Shown here one piece after another: positions 7,654 through 44,993 of a stretch of DNA of 64,000 bases (the stretch's first letter is position 1; each line of letters begins with the position of its first letter). The stretch is taken from contig JAPSLM010000001.1 of assembly GCA_031180825.1 (NCBI GenBank), positions 372,001-436,000 of the forward strand. The letters are read 5' to 3'. The position numbers were made by a program, and so were the translations under genes. The notes under the pieces were generated by a model that made no database searches, was not told the DNA's origin, and worked only from the letters and a program-made list of their open reading frames with translations. This DNA comes from Paenibacillus sp. (lineage in GTDB: Bacteria; Bacillota; Bacilli; Paenibacillales; NBRC-103111).

Positions 7654-8940
7654 ATGACAGTGAACACATTCGAAGCCTTGGAATCCAATGTTAGATCTTA
7701 TTGCCGGTCGTTCCCTGACGTTTTCGTGCGGGCTAAAGGCTCTGTCTTGCATGCGCAGTCCGGCAAGTCGTATATCGATTTCTTTGCCGGCGCGGGCGCG
7801 TTGAATTATGGACATAATAACGACTTTATCAAAGAACGGCTCATCAGTTATTTGCAATCGGACGGCATCAGCCACGGGCTGGATATGTACACTTCGGCCA
7901 AGGAAACATTCCTGCAGGCGTTCTCTGACAAGATCCTTAAGCCACGCGGTCTGAACCATAAGGTTCAATTTTGCGGTCCGACGGGAACCAATGCGGTAGA
8001 GGCGGCCTTCAAGCTGGCGAGAAAAGTAAAAGGGCGCACGGGCGTGTTCGCCTTCATCGGCGCATTTCACGGCATGTCGCTCGGCAGCCTGGCCGCCACC
8101 AGCAGCTTGTATCACCGCGAAGCGGGCGGAGTTCCGCTGCACGACGTCACCTTCATGCCTTTCCCTGCGGGCTTTATCGATGGGTTGGACACGATCGGGT
8201 ACATGGAGGCGATTTTGACGGACGACCATTCGGGTATCGCTAAACCGGCTGCGATCATCCTCGAAACGATCCAAGCGGAAGGCGGCTTAAACGAGGCTCC
8301 GATCGAATGGCTCCGCCAGCTTCGCGATCTGTGCGACCGTCACGACATTCTGCTTATTTGCGACGAAATCCAGGTAGGATGCGGGCGGACGGGCCCATTC
8401 TTCTCCTTCGAGCGTGCCGGCATCGTTCCCGATCTGGTCGTGCTTTCCAAATCGATCAGCGGTTACGGGCTGCCGATGTCCCTGCTGCTGCTGAAGCCGG
8501 AGCTCGACGTCTGGAAGCCGGCAGAGCACAACGGCACGTTCCGGGGAAATCAGCTTGCTTTCGTCGGCGCGACGGCGGCTCTCGAATTCCGCGAGCTGGC
8601 CGGACTGGAAGAGGAGACGGAACGCAAGGCGGCATTCGTCGAGCAATTTTTGAAAGAGCAAATTTTGCCGATCGACCCGCGTCTCAGCGTAAGAGGCAGA
8701 GGGCTTATCTGGGGAATCGATACGTCGGCCAGCGGGGATGAGACACTCTCCAAAGCGATTGCCTCGCGCTGCTATGAGCTCGGGCTTATCATCGAGCGGG
8801 CGGGACGTCGCGATGCGGTCGTCAAGCTGATGCCTGCGCTCACGATTCCAATGGAGGAGCTCGCCAAGGGCTGCGAGATTTTGAAGCAGGCCGTAACGGA
8901 AAGCTGCGCATCGCACTTGCTTCAACCGGAGTTGGTCTAA
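7654..8940 (+). CDS. ectB: diaminobutyrate-2-oxoglutarate aminotransferase (class III, EctB-like)
   Basis: 428 aa, a full-length PLP fold-type I class III aminotransferase. The FAGAGALNYGHNN motif lies near residue 40, CGPTGTNAVEAA near residue 108, ICDEIQVGCGRTG near residue 240, and the PLP lysine is in LSKSISGYG near residue 271. These are EctB/Dat-family motifs. The enzyme makes L-2,4-diaminobutyrate from aspartate semialdehyde and glutamate. No ectA or ectC lies alongside, so this is not an ectoine operon. Three downstream NRPS adenylation domains carry a Dab code, so it very likely supplies Dab for the peptide. GAGGAGAG lies 8 bases before the ATG. It opens the biosynthetic cluster; the next gene starts about 60 bases later. 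Confidence 0.92.
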   Translation: MTVNTFEALESNVRSYCRSFPDVFVRAKGSVLHAQSGKSYIDFFAGAGALNYGHNNDFIKERLISYLQSDGISHGLDMYTSAKETFLQAFSDKILKPRGLNHKVQFCGPTGTNAVEAAFKLARKVKGRTGVFAFIGAFHGMSLGSLAATSSLYHREAGGVPLHDVTFMPFPAGFIDGLDTIGYMEAILTDDHSGIAKPAAIILETIQAEGGLNEAPIEWLRQLRDLCDRHDILLICDEIQVGCGRTGPFFSFERAGIVPDLVVLSKSISGYGLPMSLLLLKPELDVWKPAEHNGTFRGNQLAFVGATAALEFRELAGLEEETERKAAFVEQFLKEQILPIDPRLSVRGRGLIWGIDTSASGDETLSKAIASRCYELGLIIERAGRRDAVVKLMPALTIPMEELAKGCEILKQAVTESCASHLLQPELV

Positions 8941-9000
8941 AGCCCGGTCTGCGGCGGGTCGCAGCGAAAATGCACTTGGTTCACCAATATTATTTGGGGA

Positions 9001-10575
9001 GTGAATTTATTGATGAATAAAAGAGTTCTGACGTTACTGTTATCATGCTTGCTGCTCTGGGCGGCTGTCGCAGCGCCTGCTTCCGCTGCCGCACCCAACC
9101 CGGACTTGTCCGGAGTGCCCGGAACCTGGGCGCCCGGCGCTACACCGGGTAATCTGAACCCGGACTACCCCGTCATTTTGTTCGTACAAGGCTTAACAAG
9201 CAACGCAGGAACTTGGTACCAAACGAACGATATGTACCAAACGGCTTACAATAACGGGTATCAGACCGCATTCGTCGAGCTGTACGATTCTGGAGGACCG
9301 TCGAAAAACATGTGGGATAACGGCAAGCTGCTTGCCGATAAAATCGTGGAGATTTCCAAGGCGTTCCCGGGCAAAAAGATCGTGGTCGTCGCCCACAGCA
9401 AAGGCGGAGTCGATACGCAAACGGCTCTCGTGCATTACGGCGCTTATCCGTACGTTTCGAACGTCATCACGTTGGGGAGCCCTCACCACGGGTCGCAGCT
9501 CGCCGATTTGGCTTATTCCGACTGGGCCGGATGGCTGGCGGAGCTGATCGGGTATAAGACTGAGGGCACCTACTCCATGCAAACGTCTTACATGAACTAT
9601 TTCCGTTCGATTACCGATACGCATGCCAATGCTTCGAAGAACAAGATTTACACCTTCGCCGGTGACAGCTGGCACGATTCGAGTCTGATTTACCTCCTCG
9701 GAGGGCTGTACTTGTCGAAATTCGGTGCGAACGACGGCGTCGTGACCGTCAGCAGCGCTCATAATCCGAAGGGCACCATGGTGAAGATCGGACCTTGGGA
9801 TCACAATGTGGTTCATAACGGCTCGCCGATGTTCCCGCTGATCAAGCCATATTTGACAAGCGCAGCAGGTTTGGCGGCGGAGGCGGAAAGCAGCGGGCAA
9901 AGTACGGCGCGGGATGCGAATCCGCTTGAACCGGTGCAGCCCGGCAGCACGCTGATTCGCGGAGGCAAACATGAAAGCATCGCCGTCGAGCGTTTTCTCG
10001 TCGAGAACGACGTGCGGAGCATCACGTTCGACTGGATCGCCGATCAACCGGCCGACCGCCTGGAACTGATTGCGCCAAGCGGCGAGAAAAGAACGATCGA
10101 CGTCAAGGTGGAGCAGGATCAGGAGCTGTTCAAGAACGGCTGGCACCATACCGCGGTCGTTGCCAAGCCGGAGCAGGGCGAGTGGACGCTGCAGGTGCAA
10201 TCCCAAAAGCCCGGCGCGCACCTGCTGACGGTTCAATACGATTCGGCCCTTTCCGATTCGCTCAAGCTGACGACAAAAGATAAGCATAAATTCCGTGTAG
10301 AAACCGACGGCAGCGGATTGTCCTCCGACAAGCTGAACGTCCGCTACAATGTAAACTTTATCCCTGAGCAAGGCAATCCGGGCAAAAAGCACATCCAATC
10401 GTTGAAAAAACAAGCGGCGGCAGGCGCGAATAACGAATTGGAACTGACGGCAGCCCAAGAGCCGGGCGTCTACCAAACGTCCGTCGAAGTCCGGGGGGAG
10501 ACGGCGCAAGGCGTTCCGTTCGAAAGATCTCTGCTTCGCTCGGTCTATGTCGATAAACAGGGGGGAAGGCACTAA
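9001..10575 (+). CDS. secreted lipase/esterase-like alpha/beta hydrolase
   Basis: About 520 aa. The start could be GTG 9001, TTG 9010 or ATG 9013. GGGGAG at 8996-9001 favours TTG 9010 or ATG 9013. The N-terminus is a clear signal peptide (NKRV, a Leu-rich core, then APASAAA). The hydrolase domain has FVQGLTSNAGTW near residue 60 (oxyanion region), AHSKGG near residue 130 with the nucleophile Ser, an Asp in GANDGVV near residue 243, and a His in WDHNVVHNG near residue 265. The last 200 residues form a beta-rich region, probably a separate sandwich domain. It resembles secreted bacterial triacylglycerol lipases. It sits between the Dab aminotransferase and the PPTase, 9 bases before the latter, so it belongs to the lipopeptide operon. 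Its role there (acyl supply, product trimming or deacylation) is not shown by sequence. Confidence 0.85.
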   Translation: MNLLMNKRVLTLLLSCLLLWAAVAAPASAAAPNPDLSGVPGTWAPGATPGNLNPDYPVILFVQGLTSNAGTWYQTNDMYQTAYNNGYQTAFVELYDSGGPSKNMWDNGKLLADKIVEISKAFPGKKIVVVAHSKGGVDTQTALVHYGAYPYVSNVITLGSPHHGSQLADLAYSDWAGWLAELIGYKTEGTYSMQTSYMNYFRSITDTHANASKNKIYTFAGDSWHDSSLIYLLGGLYLSKFGANDGVVTVSSAHNPKGTMVKIGPWDHNVVHNGSPMFPLIKPYLTSAAGLAAEAESSGQSTARDANPLEPVQPGSTLIRGGKHESIAVERFLVENDVRSITFDWIADQPADRLELIAPSGEKRTIDVKVEQDQELFKNGWHHTAVVAKPEQGEWTLQVQSQKPGAHLLTVQYDSALSDSLKLTTKDKHKFRVETDGSGLSSDKLNVRYNVNFIPEQGNPGKKHIQSLKKQAAAGANNELELTAAQEPGVYQTSVEVRGETAQGVPFERSLLRSVYVDKQGGRH

Positions 10576-10584
10576 CCGACGCCT

Positions 10585-11319
10585 ATGACGATCGAAGTTT
10601 ACGCGGTCCGGTTACCCGGTGAGCCGGAGGCCGGAATCATGCAGCAGTTGTACGATTGCGTATCGGAAGAAAAACAGGCGAAGGCCGCAAGATTAAAACA
10701 ACCGGCGGACCGGTGCCGAACGTTGGCCGGGGAAGCGCTGGCACGGTGGCTCATCGGACAAAAATGGGGACTTCGCTCCTCGGATATCCGGTATATCTAT
10801 AATGCTTACGGAAAGCCGTCTTTGGACGGTTTTCCGAATATTCATTTCAACGTATCCCATTCCGGCGAATGGGTCGTATGCGCTATTTCGGAGCAGCCGG
10901 TTGGCGTTGATATCGAACGGCAGCAGCATATCGATTTTTCGTGGTCCTATCATTATTTTGCACCCGAAGAGGCATACGATTTGCAGCAGCGTCCGTTTGC
11001 GGAGAGGTTATCTTATTTTTACGATCTGTGGACTTTGAAGGAAAGCTTTATTAAACAAAGAGGGGTTGGGCTTTCTCTTCCTTTGGACCGTTTCGCGGTC
11101 CGGGTCACGTCGGAAGGCAATCCCGTCCTGCTGCACAGCCCGGATTTGAAGGAGTACTGGTTCAAGCAGTATTCTGTGGACGGTCCGTACAAGCTGGCCG
11201 TGTGCGGGCAGGAACGCGATTTTGCGGAAGAACTGACCGTCCTGCCGTTCGACCAATTTATAAGCTCGCCGGGCGCTTTGCAGCTCGTTCCGCATACGGC
11301 GCAATCCGGCGAGTATTAG
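10585..11319 (+). CDS. Sfp-type 4'-phosphopantetheinyl transferase
   Basis: 244 aa, normal for the Sfp class. The signature is present: FNVSHSGEWVVCAI near residue 90, GVDIER near residue 110 (Mg-binding Asp and Glu) and WTLKESFIK near residue 150. It transfers phosphopantetheine from CoA to the conserved Ser of carrier proteins, here the nine NRPS thiolation domains, and is required for their activity. It lies directly after the lipase and before the NRPS genes. The ribosome binding site is distant (GGGGGAAGG about 15 bases upstream), so translation may rely on coupling to the lipase. The cluster has neither an MbtH-like protein nor a type II thioesterase. Confidence 0.95.
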   Translation: MTIEVYAVRLPGEPEAGIMQQLYDCVSEEKQAKAARLKQPADRCRTLAGEALARWLIGQKWGLRSSDIRYIYNAYGKPSLDGFPNIHFNVSHSGEWVVCAISEQPVGVDIERQQHIDFSWSYHYFAPEEAYDLQQRPFAERLSYFYDLWTLKESFIKQRGVGLSLPLDRFAVRVTSEGNPVLLHSPDLKEYWFKQYSVDGPYKLAVCGQERDFAEELTVLPFDQFISSPGALQLVPHTAQSGEY

Positions 11320-11386
11320 ACCGTTTTTCAGACGCATCTGTTCGTATCATTCCACAACAAAGTAACGATTCGGCGTAGGAAGCTCA

Positions 11387-11492: not shown

Positions 11493-14400
11493 GTGAGCGA
11501 GAATACGAATCAACGATTTCCATTAACGCAAGCGCAGCTGAGAATTTGGTACACGGAAATGATGAACCCGGATACCACCTTAAGCATGCTCTCTGAATCT
11601 TTGAAAATACAGGGAGGCCCCCTCGATGTAGAGGTTTTAAAACAGGCGATTTTTCTAATCATCCGGCAAAATGACGCGTTTCGGATTCGGATCGGATTCG
11701 AAAATAACGAGCCGGTGCAGTGGTTCGAGCATCCCTCGAATATCGTTCCGGAATGCGATTATGCGGAGGTTGACGGCTACGCCGAAGCGGAAGTGTGGCT
11801 GGATCGCTTCAACCGGATTCCCATCGGCATGTTCGAGCCCCGATTGTATCATATCGTGATTCTGAAAATAAACGAGAACGAGCATTGGGTCGTTTGCAAA
11901 TTCAATCATATTATTTTGGATGGCTTATCTTCGGATACGATGCTCCATCTGATCATGGAGTACTATATAGAGATTGCAAAAGGCAGCGTTCCGGCGCATC
12001 ATGCGCAGAGCACGTACCTCGATTACATTCACGCCGACCGGGAATACGAGAAGTCGGACCGTTGCCAGAAAGACAAGGAATACTGGCTGGAGAAGTTTCG
12101 CACTTTGCCTGAGGTCATGGGCGTAAAATCGTATTCCTCGTATGCCGTAAGCACCGAGGCAAAAAGAAAGAGCGTCGTGCTTAGCGGTGCTTTTTACGAG
12201 AGGTTGAAGGTTTTTAGCGATCAGCACAACGTCAGTTTGTTTACCTTGTTTTTGGCCGTGCTGTACATCTACCTGTACAAAGCAACCGGGAACGAGGATA
12301 TCTCGGTCGGCACGATTTTGGCCAACCGGACGTCGAAGAAAGAAAAAGAGACGCTCGGAATGTTTGCAAGTACGGTTGCGGGGAGAATATCGGTCGATCC
12401 GGACCAGACGCTGATTTCCTTGCTCCATTACATCGCGAAGGAACAAAAGTCGGATCTGCGCCACCAAAAGTACCCCTATAACCAGCTTATTCAGGACTTG
12501 CGGGAGATTTATCCGAACAAGCAGGAGGTTCAAGATTTATTCCGCGTGTCGATGGAATACTTGCCGCTCCGGCACGCGGATTACGATAACTTGAGCGTCC
12601 GGCATTACCCTAACTTTTGCGGCCATGAAGCGGGAGATTTTCTCGTGGACGTGTACGATTCCATCGACGATCAAGTGATCGATCTGCATGTCAGCTACCG
12701 GGCCCAATTGTACGACGACGGCGAAGCGTCCCGGCTGGTCGACCAGCTGCTTGCGATTGTCAATCAAATCCTGGATCGTCCGGATCAGACGCTTCGCGAG
12801 CTGTCGCTGCTGGGCGAAGCCGAGAGGGAAAACATATTGACCCGCTTCAATCCGCCGGCCGTTGCCGATTCGCAGGAGCAAATGCTGTCTATGCGGTTCG
12901 AAGAGCAGGCGGCGAAGGCCCCGGAACGGATTGCCGTCGTCGATAAGGACAAGCAATTGACCTACGGGGAGTTGAACGAGCGGGCGAACCGGCTCGCCGG
13001 TATGCTGAGAAACCTCGGCATCGGCAGGGAATCGATTGTCGGCATATTGGCCGAACGTTCGGCGGAAACGCTCGTCGGCGTCATGGCGGTGTGGAAAGCG
13101 GGAGGCGCCTATGTTCCGCTCGACCCCGATTATCCGCAGGACCGCATCCGGTTTATGCTGGAGGACAGCGCATCGGCCGTGCTGCTGACGCAGACGGGGC
13201 TTAAGGACCGTGTCGATGCTTGGCTAAAGCAGGATGCGGCGCTGCAGACCGTGCTCTGCCTTGATGACGAAGCGCTGTATGCTGCCGGCGATCCGGCGAA
13301 CGCGCCGAACGTGAACGAGCCGCACGATCTGGCCTACGTAATTTATACGTCTGGCACGACGGGACGCCCGAAGGGCGTGATGATCGAGCACCGCAGCCTG
13401 ACGAATACGGCGGCCGCCTACCGGCGGGAATACCGGCTTGACGAGTCCATGCGGCTGCTGCAGCTCGCCAGCTTCTCCTTCGACGTCTTCGTCGGGGACG
13501 TGGCGCGAACGCTATACAACGGCGGGACGATGGTCATATGCCCGAAGGAGGATCGCATCGATCCGGCCCGTATGTACGGATGGATCCGCGATTACGGAAT
13601 TACCGTCTTCGAATCGACGCCGGCGCTGATCGTTCCGTTTATGGAGTACGTAGCCGAGAACGGGCTGGATATGAGCTCGATGAAGCTGCTGATCACGAGC
13701 TCGGACAGCTGCAGCGTGTCGGATTACCGGGTGCTGCAGGAGCGCTACCGCTCGCAATTCCGCATTATTAACGCTTACGGCGTCACCGAGGCCGCCATCG
13801 ATTCCAGCTTCTACGACGAGCCGCTATCGAAGCTGCCAAATACGGGCAACGTGCCGATCGGCAAGGCGTGGCTGAACGCGAAGTTCTACATCGTCGATCC
13901 GCAGATGAATCCGGTGCCTGTAGGAATTCTCGGGGAATTGTGCATCGGCGGCATCGGGGTGGCGCGCGGTTACTTGAACCGTCCCGAACTGACGGAAGAG
14001 AAGTTTGTAGACAGCCCGTTCGTGCCGGGCGAGCGTTTGTACCGTACGGGAGATTTAGCCCGCTGGATGGAAGACGGCAACGTGGATTTTATCGGCCGGA
14101 TCGACTATCAGGTGAAAATTCGCGGCTTCCGTATCGAGCTCGGCGAGATCGAAAGCGCGATGCTGCGTTTCGAGGGCATTCGGCAGGCCATCGTAGTCGA
14201 CAGGACGGACGAACGGGGACAAAAATATTTGGCGGGCTACGCCGCAGCCGAAGAAACGCTCAAGCTGGACGAGCTCCAGAATTATTTGAAGCAAACCTTG
14301 CCTGCGCATATGGTTCCTTCGCGCTTGATGCGGCTCGAGCGGTTACCGCTGACACCGAACGGCAAGATCGACCGGAAGGCGCTGCCGGTTCCGGACGGAA

Positions 14401-39500: not shown

Positions 39501-41495
39501 GAGCGCTGCTACCGTACAGGGGACTTGGCAAGATGGACGCCGGATGGAACGCTGGAATACAAAGGCCGGATCGACGAGCAAGTGAAAATCCGGGGTTACC
39601 GGATCGAGCTTGGCGAGATCGAAGAGCAGCTTCTGAAAATAACGTCCGTGCTGGAAGCAACAGTCATTGCCCGCGAGGACGCAAGCGGACAGAAGCAATT
39701 GTGCGCGTACTTTGTGGCAGACCGGGAGCTTACGGTGGGCGAGCTGAGAGAAGCGCTGCTGCAGCGGCTGCCGGGCTACATGATCCCGTCGTATTTCATA
39801 CAGCTGACGCAGATTCCGCTGACGCCGAACGGGAAGATCGACCGCAGAGCGCTGCCTGCTCCGGAAGGAAGCGCGCATACGGGCACGGAGTTCGTAGAGC
39901 CGCGCACGGCCGCGGAAGCCGAACTGGTTCGGATCTGGCAGGAGGTTCTCGGACTCGACCGGATCAGCGTAATCGACAATTTCTTCGAGCTCGGAGGCCA
40001 TTCCTTGCGCGCTACGGTATTGGCAAGCAAGGTGCATAAGGAGATGAACGTGAATGTGCCGCTGCGGGATATATTCCGCTTCCCTACAGTTGAAGCGCTG
40101 GCGCGCTTCATCAACGAGACGGAAACGCAAGAGTACCGGGCTATTCCTGTCGTCGAAGAACGCGAGGTTTATCCGGTATCCTCGGCACAAAAACGTCTTT
40201 TCATCCTGCATCAGCTGGAAGGCGCGCAGCTTAGCTATAACATTCCGGGCTTCGTTACCATCGAAGGGCCGCTGGACCGCGGGCGTTTCGAGGAGGCGTT
40301 CCGGAAGCTGATCGAGCGGCACGAGACGCTGCGCACCGGCTTTGCGATGGCAAACGGCGAACCGGTGCAGCGGGTATACCGCGAAGTCGAATTTGCCGTG
40401 GAATACAGCTCGGCGGGAAGTCAGGAAGAAGCCGAAGAAATCGCCAGCCGCTTCATCCGGCCGTTCGACTTGAGCAGACCGCCTCTGCTCCGCGTCGGCT
40501 TGGTGGAATTGGAGCCGGAACACCATATTCTGATGCTGGATATGCACCACATTATTTCCGACGGAGCTTCCGTAGGCATTTTGCAGGAGGAGTTCTCCCG
40601 ACTGTATACGGGCGAGGAACTGCCGCCGCTGCGGATTCAATATAAGGATTATGCGGTATGGCAGCAGTCCGGTGCGTATGCCGAGCGGGTGAAGCAGCAG
40701 GAAGGCTATTGGCTGCAAACGTTAGCGGGCGAGCTTCCCGTCGTCGACTTGCCGACCGACTACGAAAGACCTTCGACCCGAAGCTTCGAAGGGGCGGAGT
40801 TGGAGTTCGAAGTCGACGAGGCCCTCACGCAGCAGCTGAATGAGCTGGCGGCCCGGCAGGAAAGCACGCTGTATATGGTGCTGTTTGCCGCGTATACCGC
40901 GCTGCTGTCCAAATACAGCGGACAAGAAGACATTATCGTAGGCACGCCGATAGCCGGAAGATCGCACGCCGACGTCGAGCCGCTGATCGGAATGTTTGTC
41001 AATACGCTCGCGATCCGCAATTATCCGTCCGGGTCCAAAACTTTCCTCTCCTATTTGGAGGAGGTCAAAGAAACGACCCTGGGAGCCTTCGAGCATCAAG
41101 ACTATCCGTTCGAAGAGCTGGTGGAACGACTGAACGTGAAGCGGGACGCAAGCCGCAATCCGGTGTTCGATACGATGTTTGTGCTGCAGAATAACGAGGA
41201 TCGCGGCATTGAGGTCGACGATCTTAACTTGACTCCGTTTGCGTTTGACCAAGCGCACGATGTCAAGCTGGACCTGAACCTGCACATGACCGAAGATGAC
41301 GGCGTGCTCAGGGGGAGCTTCCAGTACGCGGCCAAATTGTTTAAAGCGGCGATGATTCATAACATGTCGCAGGACTATGTATCGATCCTTTCGCAAATTT
41401 GCGAAAATCCCGAAATCCGCTTAAGCGAAATCCGGTTGAGCAGCCCTTCGGCGGACGCCAAAGGAACGCTGGACTCCATCGAATTCGCGTTTTAG
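16062..41495 (+). CDS. NRPS subunit 2: seven modules (Ile, Dab, D-Leu, Leu, Dab, D-Phe, Val)
   Basis: 8477 aa (about 940 kDa). Domain order: half-C, A, T; C, A, T; C, A, T, E; C, A, T; C, A, T; C, A, T, E; C, A, T; C. Carrier Ser residues are at 796, 1847, 2880, 4389, 5437, 6470 and 7981. The two carriers before E domains read LGGDS, the rest LGGHS. The seven complete C domains have intact HHxxxDG with catalytic His at 977, 2028, 3534, 4570, 5618, 7124 and 8163. The C domains after E domains carry the SFHHI(L)xDGW form usual for D-aminoacyl donors. E domains have HHGVVDGVSW (His 3061 and 6651). The first about 235 residues match only the C-terminal lobe of a C domain and lack HHxxxDG. Modules 3-5 and 6-8 are a tandem duplication. 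The protein ends with a complete C domain and a tail ending IEFAF. The gene starts 42 bases after subunit 1, with GGAAGGAGA upstream of the ATG. Confidence 0.96.
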   Translation: MKVAFERETAFWNKVFEGEENTPAALPYSKAPNQAPALVRTMSVALSKGVSERIVQMSKGAPLAAYMILLTGIQSLLYKYTSSSSILVGMPVVTKPNETRRPVNQLVILREEVRDDSTFKALLGEAKTSVTAAINHQNVPFRLMTERLELQYADGLPVVSTLVALKQLHVTDYRQSAVSDAVFEFELDKDAVRLHLTYNGNLYTESFIAQTVDHLDRLFSVVLFQPDLALGQVDLLSETEKHQLLDVFNQTGTDYPRDTTIHRLFEEQAERRPDAVAVAFEDRQLTYGELNERANRLARTLRNAGVQADQLVGIMVERSLDMIVGIMGILKAGGAYVPIDPEYPEERIRYMLEDSGTQVLLSQGHLQARVSFSGTWILLDDEAAYHEDGSNPEPVNGPEHLTYVIYTSGTTGKPKGNLTTHRNIIRVVKNTNYIDITEQDKLLQLSSYSFDGSTFDIFGALLNGAKLVLVPKETVLDVAKLAGLIEEQQISVMFITTAFFNVLVDMNPDCLRHARAILFGGERVSVSHVRKALGHLGPGKIKHVYGPTESTVYATSYDVHEVEEGAVSVPIGGPISNTAIYIVNAQNKLQPIGVAGELCVAGDGLARGYLNRPDLTAEKFADNPFAPGERMYRTGDLARWLPDGTIEYVGRIDDQVKIRGFRIELGEIEAHLLKLDAIEKATVVVRESANGEKQLCAYYVAGRSLPANEVRSTLSQELPAYMLPSYFVQLEQMPLTTNGKVDRRALPSPEESMQTGVEFVEPRTELEAGIVKIWKEILKIEKISVKESFFELGGHSLRATTMVSRLHKELNVSLPLRDVFRYPTVEKLAEAISGMGEQAYSSIPAAEEREVYPLSSAQKRLYILHQLEGAEQSYNMPGVTLLEGALDRSRLEEAFRALIARHETLRTGFEMVDGEPMQRIYPEVEFAVEHIRANKEEADAAVKQFIRAFDLAKPPLLRVGLIELAPERHLLMFDTHHIVSDGISMDVLVEEFARLYGGEELPPLRIQYKDYAVWQQSEAQKEQLKRQEAYWLEVFRGELPVLEMPTDYARPAVQSYAGNALRFEIDAHKREGLQRIAAESGATLYMVLLAAYTILLQKYTGQEDIVVGTPIAGRTHGDLQPLIGMFVNTLAIRNYPGADKTFLSYLEEVKETTLGAFERQDYPFEELVDKLKLARDLSRNPLFDTMFTLQNTENKEFHLPGLQLTPYPVEEHTSKFDLSLDIMESGDGFLCGIEYATALYKRETIERLAKHFEQLLGAIVSDPAAKIASLGILTAEEKAQIEHAFNPAPPELPENEAFHALFEKQAERTPEATAVVCENVRLTYRELNERANRLARTLKAQGVKPNQLVGILADRSADLLVGALAVWKAGGAYVPLDPDYPSDRIQFMLEDSAAAVLLTQTHLQERARQWVQGEQTLQAVLCLDDEAAYAEHASNVPNVNEPHDLAYVIYTSGTTGRPKGVMIEHRSLVNTAAGYRREYRLDQFPVRLLQLASFSFDVFVGDIARTLYNGGTMVICPKDDRIDPARLHYWISKEKITIFESTPALIVPFMDYVAEHGLDMSSMELLITSSDSCSVTDYRVLQERFGSQFRIINAYGVTEAAIDSSLYDEPLEKLPEAGNVPIGKAALNAKFYIVDAHLNPVPVGVLGELCIGGIGVARGYLNRPELTEEKFVDSPFVPGERLYRTGDLARWMPDGNVDFIGRIDNQAKIRGYRIETGEIETQLLKAEGVREAVVVVREDAKGQKVLCAYFTAESKLKLSELRSSLSQELPGYMIPSYFMQLEQLPLTANGKIDRKALPAPDASMQTGVEYVAPRTPQEAKLASIWQEVLGLEKVGVKDNFFELGGHSLRATLLVGKVHKEMNVELPLRDVFRCSTVEDMAQAIARMEEQAYVSIPTVEEREYYPVSSAQKRLYILHQLEGAEQSYNMTGELVLEGALDRGRLEEAFRQLIARHETLRTGFELVNGEPVQRIYKEVDFAVEHYRASEEEAGDIVCGFVRAFELAKPPLLRVGLVELAKDRHILLLDMHHIISDGMSTDVLTEEFGRLYNGESLAPLRIQYKDYAVWQQSEAQRELMKRQEAYWLDMFRGELPVLELPTDYPRPAVRKFEGSTLSFRLDAGLNEALKRVAAESGATLYMVLLAAYNVMLQKYTGQEDIVIGTPIAGRTHGDLQPLIGMFVNTLAIRSYPEGEKTFRSFLDEVKETMLGAYEHQSYPFEELVEKLQVPRDMSRNPIFDAMFVLQNTENEELQLEGLRLAPYPNDNTIARFDLTLDVTETDSGLECNLEYATALYTRETIERMARHLGQLLVAIVQAPEAPLASLEMITAEEKAQIQRVFNSTAAGYESDKTIHQLIEEQAERTPDHLAVVFEGKRLTYRELNERANRLARTLREAGVQPDQPVGLMVERSLEMVIGLFAVLKAGGAYVPIDPEYPEERIRYMLEDSGAQVLLTQRRLLDRISFAGKWLAADDEQAYHAEGSNLEPVVGPNHLAYVIYTSGTTGKPKGVMVEHHGLCSLKLMFAETLRITSQDRVVQFASFSFDASCWEVFKALFFGATLVIPSSSTILDYLLFESFMNENGITAAILPPSYAAYLNLDRLPHLKKLITGGSASSVEFVQQWKDKVMYFNAYGPTEASIVTSIWDASADGLEGKKSVPIGRPIANHRLYVVNSYNQLLPVGVPGELCIAGAGLARGYLNRPELTAEKFVDNPFEPGERMYRTGDLVRWLPNGNIEYLGRIDHQVKIRGYRIELGEVEEQLLKVASVQEAIVLARDDASGQKQLCAYFVADRALTVGELRGELSGALPGYMIPSHFVQLERMPLTPNGKIDRKALPALQGNASMGAEYVEPRSEEEKVLAAVWQAVLGSERVGATDHFFELGGDSIKSIQVSSRLYQAGYKLEIRDLFKYPTVAQLSKHIRPVARMADQGEVSGNVALTPIQHWFFEQQFAEPHHFNQSVMLHRKDGFDEAAIRKVLQKLVEHHDALRIVFRKSGNGYIAWNRAVGEGKLFGLEVVDLKGIEAPAQAVEAKANEIQSSIDLEAGPLVKAGLFRCADGDHLLIAIHHGVVDGVSWRILLEDIEIGYEQAAKGEELRLPAKTDAYRTWSEQLAAYAQSPVMERELAYWQRIAQTKVQPLPKDWQADISLQQDSESITVQWTREETDQLLKGVHRAYNTEMNDILLTALGMAVQKWSGLDRVLVNLEGHGRESIRTDIDITRTVGWFTSKYPVVLELEPEKDLSYLLKKTKEDLRQIPNKGIGYGICRYLHAAKDDIVWGAEPEVSFNYLGQFDQDLQNSDIGVSPHTGGKQSSDRQKRSFALDINGMIADGTLSLELSYNGKEYRRETMERLAASLQESLRDIIAHCVSKERAELTPSDIQFKGLTLEELEQISRQTQPIGDIENIYALTPMQKGMWFHNTLNRHGGAYIEQTLFNVQGALNIELFTRSWNELAARHAVLRTNFCSGWGGEPLQIVYRYKPVEFAYEDLRHLAEAEWNAYLDRMVNEDKTRGFDLEQDALMRVKVVRTQEESFHVLWSFHHILMDGWCLPLIAKELFDTYEAYLRNDLSERPAPPSYSHYIEWLEKQDMEAAARYWSEYLAGYDSQTTLPQGKWNKRDGEYEEANILHPLGKSLTERMSRIAKQHQVTVNTVMQAAWGIILQKYNGTDDAVFGSVVSGRSAEIPGIEEMIGLFINTIPVRVSCEAEQSFADVMKRVQEAALESGRYDYYPLYEIQAQSAQKQDLISHIMAFENFPMDEQIEQAGGDENGKLAITDVDIAEQTNYDFTLVVMPGEELVVRFYYNASVYEQTAMERLMGHLVHVLEQITANPQAPVSALELATEAEKAEIIQVFNNTAAEYQQEQTIHGLFEEQVLRNPDAVAVVFEKSQLTYGELNERANRLARTLRDAGVRPDQLVGLMVERSLEMVIGIMAIMKAGGAYIPIDPEYPEDRIRYMLEDSGAQVLLTQRHLRERVSFAGTFVAVDDEQAYHADGSNLEPVVGPNHLAYVIYTSGTTGKPKGVMVEHHGLSSLKLMFANTLQITEQDRIVQFASLSFDASCWEIFKALFFGATLYIPTSTTILDYPLFESYMNENGITAAILPPTYASYLNPDRMPSLKKLITGGSAASVEFVQQWKDKVRYFNAYGPTEASIVTTIWDAASDSLGDRKSVPIGRPLANHRIYVVDSHNRMLPVGVAGELCISGVGLARGYLNRPELTAEKFVDNPFEPGERMYRTGDLVRWLPDGNIEYLGRIDHQVKIRGYRIELGEVEAQLAKVDAVQEAIVLAREDAGGQQQLVAYFVAQGELTAAELRAALSQELPNYMIPSYFVQLDQMPLTPNGKIDRKALPAPEGSMHAGGEYVAPRTPTEAKLARIWQDVLGLEKVGVKDNFFVLGGHSLRATALASKVRKELNMELPLRHIFQFPTVEQLAEAIGQLEQQEFDAIPVVEEREYYPVSSAQKRLYILHQLEGAAQSYNMPGVMGLDGALDRERFEETFRKLIARHETLRTGFELVDGEPVQRIYPEVDFAVETIQAGEEEAKTIVRDFIRPFDLAKPPLLRVGLIELAPERHILILDMHHIVSDGVSADVLVEEFARLYSGEELPALRIQYKDYAVWQQSEAQKEQLKRQEAYWLEAFRGELPVLEMPADYARPAVQSYAGDTLDFRMSSEIAEGLKRIAAESGATLYMVLLAAYTVLLQKYTAQEDIVVGTPIAGRTHADLQPLIGMFVNTLAIRSYPAADKTFLSYLEEVKDTTLGAFEHQTYPFEELVDKLQMARDLSRNPLFDTMFSLQNTENKEMQLPGLHLTPYPTEYGMSKFDLSLDLMEDSEGLECSLEYATALYKRETIERLAKHFGQLLAAIVSDPAAKIASLGILTAEEKAQIEHVFNPAPPELPENEAFHALFEKQAERTPEATAVVCENVRLTYRELNERANRLARTLKAQGVKPNQLVGILADRSADLLVGALAVWKAGGAYVPLDPDYPSDRIQFMLEDSAATVLLTQTHLQERAQQWGQTVQAVLCFDDEAAYAEDASNVGNVNEPHDLAYVIYTSGTTGRPKGVMIEHRSLVNTAAGYRREYRLDQFPVRLLQLASFSFDVFVGDIARTLYNGGTMVICPKDDRIDPARLHYWISKEKITIFESTPALIVPFMDYVAEHGLDMSSMELLITSSDSCSVTDYRVLQERFGSQFRIINAYGVTEAAIDSSLYDEPLEKLPEAGNVPIGKAALNAKFYIVDAHLNPVPVGVLGELCIGGIGVARGYLNRPELTEEKFVDSPFVPGERLYRTGDLARWMPDGNVDFIGRIDNQAKIRGYRIETGEIETQLLKAEGVREAVVVVREDAKGQKVLCAYFTAESKLKLSELRSSLSQELPGYMIPSYFMQLEQLPLTANGKIDRKALPAPDASMQTGVEYVAPRTPQEAKLASIWQEVLGLEKVGVKDNFFELGGHSLRATLLVGKVHKEMNVELPLRDVFRCSTVEDMAQAIARMEEQAYVSIPTVEEREYYPVSSAQKRLYILQQLEGAEQTYNMPEMLVLEGALDRGRLEEAFRQLIARHETLRTGFELVNGEPVQRVYKEVDFAVEHYRASEEEAGDIVRGFVRAFDLAKAPLLRVGLAELAKDRHILMLDMHHIISDGVSTDVLTEEFGRLYNGESLAPLRIQYKDYAIWQQSEAQQELMKRQEAYWLDMFRGELPVLEMPTDYPRPAVRKFEGSVLQRRLDPRLGEGLQRIAAESGATLYMVLLAAYKVLLQKYTGQEDIVVGTPIAGRTHSDLQPVIGMFVNTLAIRSCPNGKKSFRTFLNEVKETMLGAYEHQSYPFEELVEKAQPARDLSRNPLFDTMFVLQNKETGELRLEELRLIPYPGDHTVAKFDLSVDVTEGSEGLELSMEYATALYTRETIERMAKHFEQLLASIVQAPEAALASLEMLTAEEKTQLHRVFNDTATDYEAEKTIHQLFEEQAERTPDHLAVVFEGKQLTYRELNERANRLARTLQALGVQTDQPVGLMLERSLEMVVGMFAVLKAGGAYVPIDPEYPEDRIRYMLEDSGAQVLLAQRHLQERVPFAGTVVTVDDEQAYAADGSNLESVAGPNHLAYIIYTSGTTGKPKGVMVEHHGLCSLKQLFAKTLQITAQDRVVQFASLSFDASCWEVFQALFFGATLYIPTKETILDYQWFEQYMSDNGITVATLPPTYAVYLNPDHMPSFKKLITAGSASSLELTLQWKDKVKYFNAYGPTEDSICTTIWTPTTEDISQLKSVPIGGPIANHRIYIVDAHCQPVPVGVAGELCVAGAGLARGYLNRPELTAEKFVDNPFEPGGRMYRTGDLAKWLPDGTVEYLGRIDHQVKIRGYRIELAEIEEKLLKIASVQEAIVIAHDDASGRKQLCAYFVAERTLTVGELRGELSGELPGYMIPSHFVQLERMPLTPNGKIDRKALPAPEGNAPAGADYVAPRTEEEKTLAAVWQAVLGAERVGVTDHFFELGGDSIKSIQVSSRLHQAGYKLEIRDLFKHPTIAQLSRHIQRVARMADQGEVTGEVGLTPIQRWFFDQQWADSHHFNQAFMLYRKDGFDEPAIRKVLRKLTEHHDALRIVFRKSENGYAAWNRAVGEGELYSLEVSDFRGSGAPEQAIEAKANEIQSSIDLEAGPLFKAGLFQCSDGDHLLLVIHHGVVDGVSWRIILEDLALGYEQALKEEEIRLPAKTDSFRIWSERLAAYAQSPDMGRELAYWQRIAQSEVQPLPKDEQADVSLQQDSASITIQWSRAETDQLLRKVHRAYGTEMNDILLTALGMAVQKWSGRERVLVNLEGHGRESIVSDIDITRTVGWFTSKYPVVLELEQGKDLSSHIKKVKEDLRQIPNKGIGYGLCRYLSGHADETDWGAEPEISFNYLGQFDQDLQNNEMGLSPYSSGAEMSDRHPRSFALDINGMIADGSLSLELSYSRKEYRQGTMEEFAGKLQESLQEIIAHCAAKEWAELTPSDVQFKGLSMEELEQIAEHMRHIGVIENIYALTPMQKGMWFHAALDRQAGAYFEQTLFTLKGNLDADRFAQSWNDLAARHMILRTNFYSGWKGEPLQIVFRDRQIGFGYEDLRHLPELERKAHVEKLRQEDKARGFDLEQDALMRVAVVRMEEDSYQVLWSFHHILIDGWCLPLVIKELFETYEAYIRNEEPERNAVPAYSQYIEWLEKQDGTAASAYWTDYLAGYEGQTQLPQGKAKAQGEGYLADHILCELDNELSGRMNLVTKQHRVTLNTLMQAAWGVILQKYNGTGDAVFGSVVSGRPAAIPGIEEMIGLFINTIPVRVVCEAEDRFAEVMDRLQEKALESGRYDYYPLYEIQAQSAQKQDLINHILVIENYPIDEQVEQAAGADSGMLAITDMDVAEHTNYDFTLTVYPGERITVRFDFNAMSFDRTDMERLRGHMLNVLRQITADPQMAVGDVVLATEEEKAEIVGSFNDTSAQYPAEKTIHQLFEEQAELAPDRLAVTFEDRSLTYGELNERANRLALTLRQAGVQPDESVGLMVERSLEMVVGMLAILKAGGAYVPIDPEYPDDRIGYMLEDSGAKLMLVQGHLRNRVPFAGKLIDLNDAQSYGEVGTNLQPAGRPDQLAYVIYTSGTTGRPKGVMLEHRNVVRLVKNTNYVELDEQTHILQTGAVVFDASTFEIWGALLNGGKLFVVRNETILDAASLKNAIQRYDITTMWLTAPLFNQLTQQESGMFAGLGTLIVGGDVLSVPHVNRVLREHPELKLVNGYGPTENTTFSTTHAIAGEQTEAVPIGKPISNSTAYVVDQRLNLLPVGVWGELIVGGDGVARGYLNRPDLTAEKFVDSPFRDGERCYRTGDLARWTPDGTLEYKGRIDEQVKIRGYRIELGEIEEQLLKITSVLEATVIAREDASGQKQLCAYFVADRELTVGELREALLQRLPGYMIPSYFIQLTQIPLTPNGKIDRRALPAPEGSAHTGTEFVEPRTAAEAELVRIWQEVLGLDRISVIDNFFELGGHSLRATVLASKVHKEMNVNVPLRDIFRFPTVEALARFINETETQEYRAIPVVEEREVYPVSSAQKRLFILHQLEGAQLSYNIPGFVTIEGPLDRGRFEEAFRKLIERHETLRTGFAMANGEPVQRVYREVEFAVEYSSAGSQEEAEEIASRFIRPFDLSRPPLLRVGLVELEPEHHILMLDMHHIISDGASVGILQEEFSRLYTGEELPPLRIQYKDYAVWQQSGAYAERVKQQEGYWLQTLAGELPVVDLPTDYERPSTRSFEGAELEFEVDEALTQQLNELAARQESTLYMVLFAAYTALLSKYSGQEDIIVGTPIAGRSHADVEPLIGMFVNTLAIRNYPSGSKTFLSYLEEVKETTLGAFEHQDYPFEELVERLNVKRDASRNPVFDTMFVLQNNEDRGIEVDDLNLTPFAFDQAHDVKLDLNLHMTEDDGVLRGSFQYAAKLFKAAMIHNMSQDYVSILSQICENPEIRLSEIRLSSPSADAKGTLDSIEFAF
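18607..21730 (+). other. NRPS module 3: C-A-T, predicted Dab
   Basis: Catalytic C His977. A pocket from D1497: D, V, G, E, I, S, A, I, D (Dab). Carrier Ser1847. The A-T part is almost identical in DNA to module 6. Confidence 0.82.
20503..21490 (+). repeat. direct repeat in the module 3 Dab A domain (identical to 31273-32260)
   Basis: Reading both copies line by line I see no difference over about 988 bases, including third codon positions. Single differences appear on either side (20502 and 21491), and similarity stays high to about 22300. Confidence 0.9.
21766..26200 (+). other. NRPS module 4: C-A-T-E, predicted D-Leu
   Basis: C His2028. A pocket from D2540: D, A, W, I, I, G, A, I, V, which I associate with Leu in Paenibacillus lipopeptide synthetases; another branched or aromatic hydrophobic residue is possible. 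The carrier is LGGDS (Ser2880) and the E domain has His3061, so the residue should be incorporated in D form. Confidence 0.72.
26245..29340 (+). other. NRPS module 5: DCL C-A-T, predicted L-Leu
   Basis: The C domain follows an E domain and has the SFHHILMDGW form (His3534). A pocket from D4049: D, A, W, I, I, G, A, I, V, identical to module 4. Carrier Ser4389. No E domain. Confidence 0.72.
29389..32500 (+). other. NRPS module 6: C-A-T, predicted Dab
   Basis: C His4570. A pocket from D5087: D, V, G, E, I, S, A, I, D. Carrier Ser5437. It is a near-exact copy of module 3 through the A and T domains. Confidence 0.82.
31273..32260 (+). repeat. direct repeat in the module 6 Dab A domain (identical to 20503-21490)
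   Basis: Partner of the module 3 repeat, exactly 10,770 bases downstream. Identity at synonymous sites points to recent duplication or ongoing gene conversion. Confidence 0.9.
32536..37000 (+). other. NRPS module 7: C-A-T-E, predicted D-Phe
   Basis: C His5618. A pocket from D6130: D, A, W, T, I, A, A, I, C, identical to the Phe code of gramicidin S synthetase GrsA. Carrier LGGDS Ser6470, E domain His6651. Confidence 0.85.
37018..40125 (+). other. NRPS module 8: DCL C-A-T, predicted Val
   Basis: The C domain has the SFHHILIDGW form (His7124). A pocket from D7638: D, A, F, W, I, G, G, T, F, the Val code known from gramicidin S and tyrocidine synthetases. Carrier Ser7981. Confidence 0.83.
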
Positions 41496-41525
41496 AAGGA
41501 CTCTTTTTTGCCCGGTAACAGATCG

Positions 41526-41577
41526 CCTGGAAGAGTGTGTGTCCGCCATCCGGACACACACTCCGGGCGTTTTGTTG
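41526..41577 (+). terminator. terminator-like hairpin between NRPS subunits 2 and 3
   Basis: A perfect 13-base stem (GAGTGTGTGTCCG 41533-41545, CGGACACACACTC 41551-41563) with a 5-base loop, extended by a CCTG/CGGG base, followed by a short weak T-run (TTTTGTT). It could be a partial terminator or attenuator between two NRPS genes, or a stabilising structure left after mRNA processing. Confidence 0.6.
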
Positions 41578-41675
41578 CGTAAGGACGCGCTTCGGCGCCA
41601 CTCGCTTTGGGCTCAAAACAAACACGCTCTGTCTTCACGGACGGAGAAGCCGGTTATTCTGGGGGAGGTTAACGA

Positions 41676-44600
41676 ATGAAGTCGGTATTTGAGAAGGAAG
41701 AGGCTTATTGGACCGCAAAATTTGATGCCGAAGACAGCATAAGCTTTTTGCCCTACGGCCCATCCTCCAATAAAAGCAACAGTATGAATCCCGCAAATCA
41801 TGCGGGCGCGGTCCGGCGTATGCTTCCGCAAGAGCTGTCGGCAAGAATTCAATCCCTCGCGAAGGGATCGGATATGGCCGTGTACATGATTTTGTTGGCG
41901 GGGGTCAACGCGCTGCTTTCCACGTATGCCAATCAGGAACATGTGCTGGTAGGCATGCCTGCATGCCCCGCGTTCAACGCCGACAATCCGCCGGTTCACG
42001 ATGTGCTGATTATTAAAAATAAAGTAAGCGGGGAAAGCACATTTAAAACGTTATTAGGCGAAGTCAAAGCGTCGGTGATCGGAGCCCTCGAACACCAGCG
42101 GCTTCCTTTCCGGAAAATGATTCAAGGCCTGAATTTGCATTTTAGTCCCGCAGGCCAGCCGGTATTCAACACGATCGTTTCGCTGGCGAATCTGCATACG
42201 GATGCTTTTGCAACAAGCGTGGCGGCGGACGCCGTGTGGCGGTTTGAATCGGCGGCGGAGGGCGCTCTCGCTCTCGATTTAAGCTTTGATGAGCAGCGGT
42301 ACGAGCAGGAGTTTATGGATAGGGCGGTCGATCATTTCTTTCGCCTCCTGTCCATCGTTTTGTTTCAGCCCGACCTTGCGCTCGGCCAGGTTGACCTCTT
42401 GTCCGAAGCCGAGAAGCATCAGCTGTGCGTCTTGTTCAACGACACTGCGACGAATCGCTATCCGCAAAATAAAGCGCTTTTCTCCGTGTTCGAGGAGCAG
42501 GCGGAACGTACCCCGGATCGGCTTGCCGTTGTCTTTAAAGACAACCGGTTAACGTACGGGGAACTGAACGAACGGGCGAACCGGATTGCGCGGGTGCTGC
42601 GGGCGGAGGGCGTTACGGCGGACCGGCCGGTGGCGATGCTGATGGAGCGCTCGGTAGAAATGATCGTCGGCATGCTGGCGGTGTTGAAGGCGGGCGGGGC
42701 TTACGTGCCGATCGATCCGCAGCATCCGGAGGACCGAATCCGCTTTGTGCTGGAAGACAGCGGCGCCGACCTTCTTCTGACGCAAGCCCGCTGGGCGGAT
42801 AAAGTGGATTTCCGCGGGAAGACGCTGTGTTTGGACGACACCGGACTTTATGATAGTCCGGCGGAGGACGGCTTGAACCTGGAGCCGGTGTCCGGGGCGA
42901 ACAACCTGGCGTATTTGATCTATACGTCCGGTACGACGGGCAAGCCGAAAGGGGTCATGATCGAGCAGCGCAGCGTGGTGAATTTTACGCTCAGCCTGTT
43001 CGAGCCGATCTATGCCGCTTACCCGGAATACCGGAATATGGCGCAATTGGCGCCGTACGTCTTCGACATGTCGGTAAAACCGATCTACGGCGCTCTGCTG
43101 CTGGGGCGGACGCTGCACATCGTCCCCGAAGAGACGCGGTTGGACGGGGAGAAGCTGCTTAAGTTTTTCCGCGAGCACGAGATCGACATTACGGATGCGA
43201 CGCCGACCTTTTTGTCCGTTCTGGTGCAAGCGGCTCAAGGGGCCGGCGGGGAAGCGGGAGCGAAACATTATGTGGTTGGCGGGGAAGCGTTAACCACGAA
43301 GGTCGTAAGGGCGGTATGGTCGACGTTCGGAGAACAGGTGAAAATCACGAACGTTTACGGACCGACGGAGTGTACGGTCGACTCTACGATTTACGAGGTC
43401 TCGCCGGAGCGTCTTGCCGAACTGACGGATACCGTGCCCATCGGGAAACCGCTGCCGAACCAAAAGCTCTGGATTCTGGATTCGCGTCAGCGGCTTCTGC
43501 CGGTCGGGGTAGCGGGCGAGCTTCACATCAGCGGAGCCGGTGTGGCCCGAGGGTATAACCGGCGTCTGGAGCTTACGGCCGAGAAGTTTGTGGCAAATCC
43601 GCACGATCCGGGCGAGCGCATGTACAAGACGGGCGATTTGGCCCGCTGGCTGCCGGACGGCAATATCGAATATTTGGGACGCATCGACCATCAGGTGAAA
43701 ATACGCGGCTTCCGGATTGAGCTCGGGGAAGTGGAGGCGCAGCTCTTGAAGCTGGAGCCCGTGCAAGAGGCGATTGTTTTGGCGCGGGAGGACGACAGCG
43801 GGCAGAAGCAGCTGTGCGCCTATTTCGTGGCTGTCCGGCCGCTGACGGTAAGCGAGCTTAGAGGCGCATTGTCGCAAGAAATGCCGGCTTATATGATTCC
43901 GGCGCATTTCATCCAATTGGACCGGCTGCCGCTGACGACGAACGGGAAGGTCGACCGGCGAGCGCTGCCTGCCCCGGAAGGAGACATCGACACGGGGACG
44001 GAATATGTGGCTCCGCGTACGGCGCAGGAGGCGCAGCTTGCCCGAATCTGGAAAGAGGTTCTGGGCCTGGAAAAGGTCGGCGCGAAGGATAATTTCTTCG
44101 TCCTCGGCGGCCATTCCTTGAATTTGATGCAGCTGATTCAGCGGGTATACACCGAAACGGGCGTCGAGCTTCCGATTCACAAAGTATTTCAAAATCCGAC
44201 CGTGGAATCGATGGCTTACGAGATTTGGGAATCCGGGCAGGACGGGGACGGCGGAAGCCGTTTCGTGAAGCTGAACGGAGAAGGGCCGTTGAACGTATTT
44301 TGTTTCCCGCCGGGAAGCGGATACGGCTTCGCTTACTTGGAGCTGGCGAAACGGCTGGAAGGTCACTGCACCTTGCACGTCATTGATTTTATCGATGATG
44401 CGGAAACGAAGGAAAGTCTCGCGGAGCGGTATGTGGACGAGGTGATCCGCATTCAGGATCAATCGCCGTATATCCTTCTCGGATATTCCGTAGGCGGCAA
44501 TCTGATGTTCGAAGTGGCGGAAGCGATGGAAAAAGGAGGATGCCGGGTCTCGGATCTGATTATCGTAGACTCGTTGATTCGACGAAACGCAACGGACCCC

Positions 44601-44993
44601 ACGCCTGTCGAAGAATTGGAAAACGATATCGAAGATATCCTCGGCCTGGTTGAAGGACTGGACGAAGGAGCGACGGGCAATCCGCTTATTCGCGAACGCA
44701 TGGAACGGAAAATAAGAGCGTATTTGTCTTATGGAAGCGAACTGGTGAATACGGGCACGGTAACGGCAAATATTCATGCGTTATTTACGGAAGAAGTCAA
44801 TGCCGTCCGGTCTCGGTACCCAGTGGCGTCGTGGCGCGAGGGTACGCGGCAAAGCTATAGCGAATATAACATTGCCGGCCCTCATGCCAAAGTGCTGCAC
44901 CCCGAGTATGTGGAAGAAAACTCCAAAGTATTTCTCCGCATCCTCCGGCAAATCTCCGGGCATACAAACGAAGTCCAAGAAGTGCTGAACTGA
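41676..44993 (+). CDS. NRPS subunit 3: half-C-A(Glu-like)-T-TE
   Basis: 1105 aa, ATG with GGGGGAGG upstream. Residues 1 to about 245 match only the C-terminal lobe of a condensation domain and begin with MKSVFEKEEAYW, similar to the start of subunit 2. The A domain (about 265-775) contains LIYTSGTTGKPKG and a pocket starting at D464. The carrier domain (about 780-850) has LGGHS with Ser814. The type I thioesterase (about 865-1105) has the nucleophile in GYSVGG (Ser938), an Asp in IIVDS near 965, and a likely catalytic His in the GPHAKVLHPEY segment near 1068-1075. The TE should release the nonapeptide by hydrolysis or macrocyclisation. Which one cannot be read from sequence. It is the last biosynthetic gene; a strong terminator follows about 110 bases later. 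Confidence 0.95.
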   Translation: MKSVFEKEEAYWTAKFDAEDSISFLPYGPSSNKSNSMNPANHAGAVRRMLPQELSARIQSLAKGSDMAVYMILLAGVNALLSTYANQEHVLVGMPACPAFNADNPPVHDVLIIKNKVSGESTFKTLLGEVKASVIGALEHQRLPFRKMIQGLNLHFSPAGQPVFNTIVSLANLHTDAFATSVAADAVWRFESAAEGALALDLSFDEQRYEQEFMDRAVDHFFRLLSIVLFQPDLALGQVDLLSEAEKHQLCVLFNDTATNRYPQNKALFSVFEEQAERTPDRLAVVFKDNRLTYGELNERANRIARVLRAEGVTADRPVAMLMERSVEMIVGMLAVLKAGGAYVPIDPQHPEDRIRFVLEDSGADLLLTQARWADKVDFRGKTLCLDDTGLYDSPAEDGLNLEPVSGANNLAYLIYTSGTTGKPKGVMIEQRSVVNFTLSLFEPIYAAYPEYRNMAQLAPYVFDMSVKPIYGALLLGRTLHIVPEETRLDGEKLLKFFREHEIDITDATPTFLSVLVQAAQGAGGEAGAKHYVVGGEALTTKVVRAVWSTFGEQVKITNVYGPTECTVDSTIYEVSPERLAELTDTVPIGKPLPNQKLWILDSRQRLLPVGVAGELHISGAGVARGYNRRLELTAEKFVANPHDPGERMYKTGDLARWLPDGNIEYLGRIDHQVKIRGFRIELGEVEAQLLKLEPVQEAIVLAREDDSGQKQLCAYFVAVRPLTVSELRGALSQEMPAYMIPAHFIQLDRLPLTTNGKVDRRALPAPEGDIDTGTEYVAPRTAQEAQLARIWKEVLGLEKVGAKDNFFVLGGHSLNLMQLIQRVYTETGVELPIHKVFQNPTVESMAYEIWESGQDGDGGSRFVKLNGEGPLNVFCFPPGSGYGFAYLELAKRLEGHCTLHVIDFIDDAETKESLAERYVDEVIRIQDQSPYILLGYSVGGNLMFEVAEAMEKGGCRVSDLIIVDSLIRRNATDPTPVEELENDIEDILGLVEGLDEGATGNPLIRERMERKIRAYLSYGSELVNTGTVTANIHALFTEEVNAVRSRYPVASWREGTRQSYSEYNIAGPHAKVLHPEYVEENSKVFLRILRQISGHTNEVQEVLN

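Follow-up and report, generated by a model that had tools for sequence, protein, structure and literature searches.

The window analysed here is a 64,000-nucleotide stretch of the Paenibacillus sp. contig JAPSLM010000001.1, in which positions 7654–44993 hold six plus-strand genes, the first encoding an aminotransferase, the second a lipase-like protein, the third an Sfp-type phosphopantetheinyl transferase and the last three a nonribosomal peptide synthetase (NRPS). By gene content and order this is the plpA–F locus of a pelgipeptin/polypeptin-family cluster, and its synthetase has, in our view, quite likely been reprogrammed by recombination. Judged from sequence, each of modules 4, 7, 8 and 9 has an adenylation (A) domain core foreign to its place, and a condensation (C) domain that is cognate. 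Read as amino acids, the Phe, Val and Leu found at positions 4, 7 and 8 of pelgipeptin are here Leu, Phe and Val—the same residues, permuted—and a Glu-type core stands in place of the Ser/Thr core of module 9.

The three synthetase subunits, built additionally from thiolation (T), epimerization (E) and thioesterase (TE) domains, are laid out as follows (Dab, diaminobutyrate):

11493..16019, plus strand: plpD-type subunit, starter C–A1 (Dab)–T–C2 (Pfam; code DVGEISAIDK)
16062..41495, plus strand: plpE-type subunit, half-C, modules 2–8 and a terminal C9 (codes, motifs)
41676..44993, plus strand: plpF-type subunit, half-C–A9 (Glu-type)–T–TE (Pfam; code DMKDVGVVDK)

Modules 2–8 of plpE read as Ile/Val, Dab, Leu with E, Leu, Dab, Phe with E, and Val. 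The pocket codes, obtained by aligning each A domain to the window's own Phe domain, and the two E domain motifs are:

A1: DVGEISAIDK, Dab
A2: DGFFLGVVYK, Ile/Val
A3: DVGEISAIDK, Dab
A4: DAWIIGAIVK, Leu
A5: DAWIIGAIVK, Leu
A6: DVGEISAIDK, Dab
A7: DAWTIAAICK, Phe
A8: DAFWIGGTFK, Val
A9: DMKDVGVVDK, Glu-type
25239..25259, plus strand: HHGVVDG, E domain of module 4
36009..36029, plus strand: HHGVVDG, E domain of module 7

Seven of these nine codes are identical to codes printed for the pelgipeptin synthetase, and that of A2 lies one residue (Y for F) from another (PMC3479019); it is because of these matches that A1–A8 are read as Dab, Ile/Val, Dab, Leu, Leu, Dab, Phe and Val. Applied to P. tyrfis Q-3-15, the same script returned exactly the nine published pelgipeptin codes (PMC3479019), and for position 9 of P. 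ehimensis NBRC 15659 it read DFWNIGMVHK, a Thr-type code; a conspecific strain, B7, produces polypeptin with Thr9 (PMC3637185).

The synthetase shares with the plpA–H system of P. elgii B69 (PMC3479019, Table 1) its subunits of 1, 7 and 1 A domains, the restriction of E domains to modules 4 and 7, and the codes for Dab at 1, 3 and 6, Ile/Val at 2 and Leu at 5. The family's Phe4, Val7, Leu8 and Ser/Thr9 are replaced by Leu4, Phe7, Val8 and a Glu-type position 9; the polypeptin of P. ehimensis B7 (PE1/PE2), likewise a nonapeptide, follows the pelgipeptin order at 4, 7 and 8 (PMC3637185). The initial annotation of this DNA had proposed a 1+7+1 relative of the pelgipeptin synthetase, which we take to be of the paenipeptin type also. 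The subunit plan stands on gene and A-domain counts and the two HHGVVDG motifs, and the kinship on the codes and module plan. Its nonapeptide order is reproduced by the recomputed codes, save that position 2 should read Ile/Val.

The window's genus group in our collection comprises 25 genomes, including P. elgii, P. tyrfis, P. ehimensis and Paenibacillus sp. MZ04-78.2. Against their sister modules we ran 80-residue tiles and a 30-residue sliding identity which, together with module-wise alignment, were used in place of a global MAFFT alignment of the ~8,500-residue plpE proteins, where ~3,600 window residues stayed unaligned, an artefact of the repeated modules. Modules 1, 2, 3, 5 and 6 track pelgipeptin-type modules, mostly at 90–100% (for plpD against sister module 1, 87–95% in the C part and 94–95% in the A core). 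Elsewhere, four islands interrupt this pattern:

23200..24300, plus strand: A4 core island, Leu-type core in a module-4 frame (tiling, sliding identity)
33800..35400, plus strand: A7 island, Phe-type A domain of the pelgipeptin module-4 type in a module-7 frame (tiling, sliding identity)
38400..39700, plus strand: A8 core island, Val-type core in a module-8 frame (tiling, sliding identity, trees, tree tests)
42400..43750, plus strand: A9 core island, Glu-type core (core matches)

In the five sister clusters that were read, module 4 is Phe, module 7 Val and module 8 Leu. The window's A4 core instead best matches module-5 Leu cores (82–84%), A7 the sister module-4 Phe cores (90–92%), A8 the Val cores of modules 7 and 2 (85–86%) and A9 Glu-type cores from four other loci (81–83%). 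The C parts remain closest to their same-numbered counterparts (module 4, 91–92%; module 7, 89–91%; module 8, 74–76%), as does the C9 end of plpE (88–90%), with the half-C of plpF at 54–65% to its sister counterparts. The interface between the A subdomain and T domain (Asub–T) is also cognate in modules 4 (92–94% to module 4), 8 and 9.

Trees agree with this picture. Cores were obtained from 73 of the 75 modules named (all but G013 module 7 and the Glu-type domain of G005:C387) and C parts from 55; the C-part tree was built on 51 rows, with Glu and G008 donor rows left out, and is mute on window modules 2 and 9 because a gene border there splits C from A. G011, whose codes are broken, was kept in the tile database and out of the trees. 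In the A-core tree, Shimodaira–Hasegawa-like support (SH-aLRT) places module 7 with module-4 Phe cores at 99, module 8 with Val cores at 94 and module 9 with Glu-type cores at 100, and module 4 branches off basally in the Leu/Phe group. The tree of C parts puts modules 4, 7 and 8 each with its own number, module 8 at 91 and on a long branch. Approximately unbiased (AU) tests on 48 rows, run without Dab-type cores, reject a same-module grouping of the A cores in four of four modules, with log-likelihood losses of 75, 333, 274 and 260 for modules 4, 7, 8 and 9 respectively.

Such a pattern matches the general mode of NRPS recombination described by Baunach et al. (2021; PMC8097286), in which the core is swapped and the C–A linker and Asub–T interface are mostly kept; the Firmicutes cases treated there are iturinic lipopeptides and polymyxins, and the word pelgipeptin was not found in the main text. 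Further claims of the initial annotation are borne out here: positions 4, 7, 8 and 9 do differ from pelgipeptin by codes, tiling and core matches; a Glu-like residue does replace the C-terminal Ser, by A9 code and by the grouping of its core; and the statement that Phe and its partner had moved to the second block holds as a description, a module-4-type Phe core now lying in module 7. The exchange can be put more sharply: module 8 now carries a Val core and module 4 a Leu core, each beside a cognate C domain. Among 296 genomes of the order (a draw from a larger group), the A9-type Glu core was matched at E ≤ 1e-90 in eight, the window's own included, all from its genus; elsewhere in the genus it sits in synthetases of other architecture, and in its own genome it occurs at this locus only. 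As a separate observation, the A cores of Dab modules 3 and 6 (20142–21900 and 30940–32600) show no difference over ~200 residues in the window. Both modules could be read in three sister clusters, and there too the two cores are the same or nearly so; they thus seem to evolve in concert within a genome.

A second level of mosaicism appears at the DNA level, where tiles of 600 bases were compared with four sister loci:

35400..44993, plus strand: 3' block of E7, module 8, C9 and plpF (DNA identity to four sister loci)

Identity stands at 84–86% at 35.4 kb, falls to 64–85% over 36.0–45.0 kb and returns to 88–97% over 45.0–51.6 kb. The remaining locus, outside the islands, is mostly at 88–97%, exceptions being 81–82% at 7.2 kb and lower values for MZ04 at module 2, which in that strain is Val-type. 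Low P. ehimensis and P. elgii values at 19.8–22.2 and 30.6–33.0 kb are not evidence, because modules 3 and 6 are absent from the contigs read. P. ehimensis is the nearest named species on most tiles. The TE of plpF, which retains a GYSVGG motif, is 65–67% identical to those of five sister clusters, and the best TE elsewhere reaches 67% (of 104 family genomes searched, 16 gave a match at E ≤ 1e-70, the window's own among them). Since the block is far more diverged than its surroundings and no closer TE was met in those genomes, it probably derives from a divergent, unsampled pelgipeptin-type relative; the A8 and A9 cores, both lying inside it, may have arrived with it. Contamination by another genome was considered as a source of the block and judged unlikely, given the TE comparison and the DNA tiles.

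By analogy with the family, PlpA would make Dab, PlpC would prime the carriers and the starter C domain would join a short 3-hydroxy fatty acid to Dab1, after which the modules would extend the chain in order, with E4 and E7 setting D-Leu4 and D-Phe7. Release by the TE would then give acyl-Dab-Ile/Val-Dab-D-Leu-Leu-Dab-D-Phe-Val-Glu, with ring closure probably joining the C-terminal carboxyl to the hydroxyl of the fatty acid in a macrolactone like that of polypeptin. The predicted lipononapeptide would have the amino-acid composition of pelgipeptin in permuted order, except for Glu in place of Ser/Thr, and a net charge one lower because of the single acidic side chain; it is expected to act as a membrane-active antibiotic. 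For the cyclic C7 form we calculate 1142.706 Da ([M+H]+ 1143.714); applied to polypeptin PE1, the same arithmetic yields 1114.711, and 567.368 for the doubly charged ion of the opened form, where 1,114 Da and 567.4 were reported (PMC3637185). With C6 and C8 3-hydroxyacyl chains the cyclic ions would fall at m/z 1129.698 and 1157.729; Val at position 2 would lower each value by 14, and ring opening would raise it by 18.011. The C6 value is just 0.036 away from that of a C8 polypeptin (1129.734). No peptide of this order was found in the openly licensed papers searched, as the initial annotation had supposed. The kind of system is therefore known and the variant appears new as far as that search reaches, though a 2015 survey notes, for P. 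mucilaginosus, P. elgii B69 and P. terrae, an undescribed nonapeptide along with variants (PMC4397504), which may be an earlier in silico mention of a relative. The mosaic nature of the locus is better supported than the chemistry, and the product should be taken as a prediction.

Relatives within the genus give this locus its context. plpB (86–92% identical; 100% in the window) marks it in 10 of the 25 genomes, and the other nine loci divide into five of pelgipeptin/polypeptin type, as far as read, and four that we liken to octapeptin synthetases (G013, G001, G024 and G005, with 8, 8 on two contigs, 3 and only the last domain read, respectively). The latter share (in part for G024 and G005) the place, plpA-B-C, the flanks, the half-C junctions and a Dab-rich predicted product, and differ in having eight modules, ordered Dab-Dab-Dab-Phe-(DGFLLGAVYK)-Dab-Dab-Leu in G013 and G001, and a TE 48–51% identical to the window's. 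Octapeptin synthetases have eight modules, and the window nine. At another locus, an 11-module cluster (G016:C7, loci L032–L034) resembles the window in its D-X-Val-Glu end, its identical last code DMKDVGVVDK and an E domain in the module before Val, and differs in its module number, in its flanking genes except for a plpA homolog, and in a TE 50% identical. Its order, Dab-Thr-Dab-Leu-Dab-Phe(E)-Leu-Dab-X(DASIVAAICK, E)-Val-Glu, points to a further predicted Dab lipopeptide. In G008:C28 (loci L100–L101), the code order resembles that of tridecaptins, and DMKDVGVVDK occurs at two modules, one of them at the place of tridecaptin Glu10 (PMC11106739).

Several observations weigh against a reprogrammed synthetase with the product given above. 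The assignment of position 9 is one. Surfactin carries Glu at position 1. The A9 code DMKDVGVVDK is read as Glu on account of its likeness to DAKDLGVV, the code at position 1 of surfactin, which is annotated Glu/Asp (PMC10548584), and the exact code was not found in the openly licensed papers searched. Code prediction can itself fail, as for paenilipoheptin A, in which Lys and Ala turned up where Dab and Val had been predicted (PMC11959601). Within the mosaic, the Asub–T flank of module 7 is foreign (module-4 type, like its core), which breaks the general recombination rule, and the module-4 Leu core, basal in its group, points to no single donor. The pelgipeptin cluster has two ABC exporters, plpGH, after plpF (PMC3479019); these are absent from the window and from P. 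ehimensis NBRC 15659 and present in 9 of the 11 loci examined (window counted; in P. tyrfis MSt1 and MZ04 judged by open reading frame (ORF) size and place). Lastly, the surrounding 4.33-Mb assembly is in 31 contigs and 85% complete.

The alternative that survives best, and to which we give tentative though appreciable weight, is a real synthetase with another product, which might be a linear acid, have Val as its second residue, end in Gln, Asp or a modified Glu, or contain a D-Glu introduced otherwise. The pelgipeptin counterpart of A2, one code residue away, activated Val, Leu and Ile in vitro (PMC3479019), paenilipoheptin A held a D-Glu that its genes did not predict (PMC11959601), and the TE is only 65–67% identical to its sisters; set against this are an intact TE motif, an overall fit to the family and the clustering of A9 with other Glu-type cores. 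We think it rather unlikely that the window's order is ancestral and the pelgipeptin order of the sister species derived: the Phe core of module 7 and the Val core of module 8 do branch outside the sister cores, and the 11-module cluster of G016 also ends in Val-Glu, but the frames of modules 4 and 7 are sister-like, and the pelgipeptin pattern recurs, as far as read, in five of five other nonapeptide loci (modules 3 and 6 missing from the P. elgii and P. ehimensis contigs).

That the cluster is silent or decaying, with peptide export gone and the system being lost, seems to us improbable. The absence of plpGH is what such a reading would lead one to expect, but the NRPS frames are open and the C, T and TE motifs inspected are intact; P. 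ehimensis NBRC 15659 lacks plpGH at this locus as well, and another strain of that species does secrete polypeptins (PMC3637185), an indirect argument. Further ABC proteins are encoded in the genome: 18 matches were obtained at E ≤ 1e-30, including pieces with 42% and 65% identity to PlpG, which neighbour a different NRPS A domain on contig C1. Finally, a two-strain assembly chimera hiding an ordinary polypeptin-type locus, suggested by the incomplete assembly and by the identity steps that edge the 3' block (the right one sharp), is very hard to credit, as it needs two junctions 9.6 kb apart with frames intact, the left step falling inside an open 8477-codon frame, would leave the A4 and A7 islands outside the block standing, and has no sampled genome as a possible contaminant, the best TE elsewhere being 67% identical.

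Returning to the locus itself, the order of its genes is that of plpA–F in the pelgipeptin cluster (PMC3479019), and P. elgii, P. tyrfis and P. ehimensis carry theirs at the corresponding chromosomal position. The upstream flank shared with P. elgii holds a short-chain dehydrogenase/reductase and two heparinase II/III genes, and the downstream flank nitrate/sulfonate-type ABC genes on the opposite strand; these common flanks and an upstream plpA-B-C are features of the family. The accessory genes are:

7654..8940, plus strand: plpA-type diaminobutyrate aminotransferase (class III), Dab supply (Pfam Aminotran_3)
9001..10575, plus strand: plpB-type secreted lipase/esterase (AHSKG nucleophile motif)
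10585..11319, plus strand: plpC-type Sfp phosphopantetheinyl transferase (Pfam ACPS and AASDHPPT_N)

For plpA, copies at 96–97% identity were met in six sister loci (80–81% for homologs at other loci in G016 and G011), and plpB relatives at 86–92% occur in 9 of the 24 other genus genomes searched. NCBIfam, run on each half of plpE, gave only generic NRPS and ligase matches among the best 25 of 107.

Some features of the subunits deserve mention in their own right. The starter C domain reads FNHIILDG (11901–11924) where elongation C domains read HHxxxDG. PlpE and PlpF, given as starting with A in pelgipeptin (PMC3479019), here open with a half C domain, the C-terminal part, which lacks HHxxxDG (16062–16835 and 41676–42461), although the preceding subunit ends in a whole C domain. 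This half-C is common to 10 of 10 such N-termini aligned, including those of octapeptin-like synthetases and a tridecaptin-like one; half-Cs from the last subunits of nonapeptide and octapeptin-like clusters are 56–58% identical to that of the window's PlpF, and others 38–44%, a pattern that might fit a junction-specific docking element. Downstream, at 48918–54181, a LuxR-type response regulator and a HisKA_3 kinase lie beside an ABC ATPase and two more long ORFs, a group kept downstream of this locus in sister genomes; it presumably resembles lipopeptide-sensing ABC operons and could be a self-protection system.

Taken more broadly, the locus would be an allelic exchange site for Dab-lipopeptide synthetases, with the window as a third chemotype marked by the Phe/Val/Leu permutation in 4, 7 and 8, a captured Glu core and a 3' block of an unsampled lineage—a proposal that we hold in even balance. 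If true, its product would be a rearrangement of pelgipeptin that keeps the same composition and carries an acidic C-terminal residue in the ring, with an altered charge and possibly a different target or cation dependence. Since its composition would nearly equal that of pelgipeptin, amino-acid analysis on its own could be misleading. The synthetase amounts to a natural NRPS-engineering experiment, in which four A cores differ in an otherwise collinear line, three of the four positions hold the same residues redistributed, and close sister clusters serve as controls. It predicts a new candidate antibiotic and, if the product is made, would show workable exchange borders and the tolerance of C domains for new residues.

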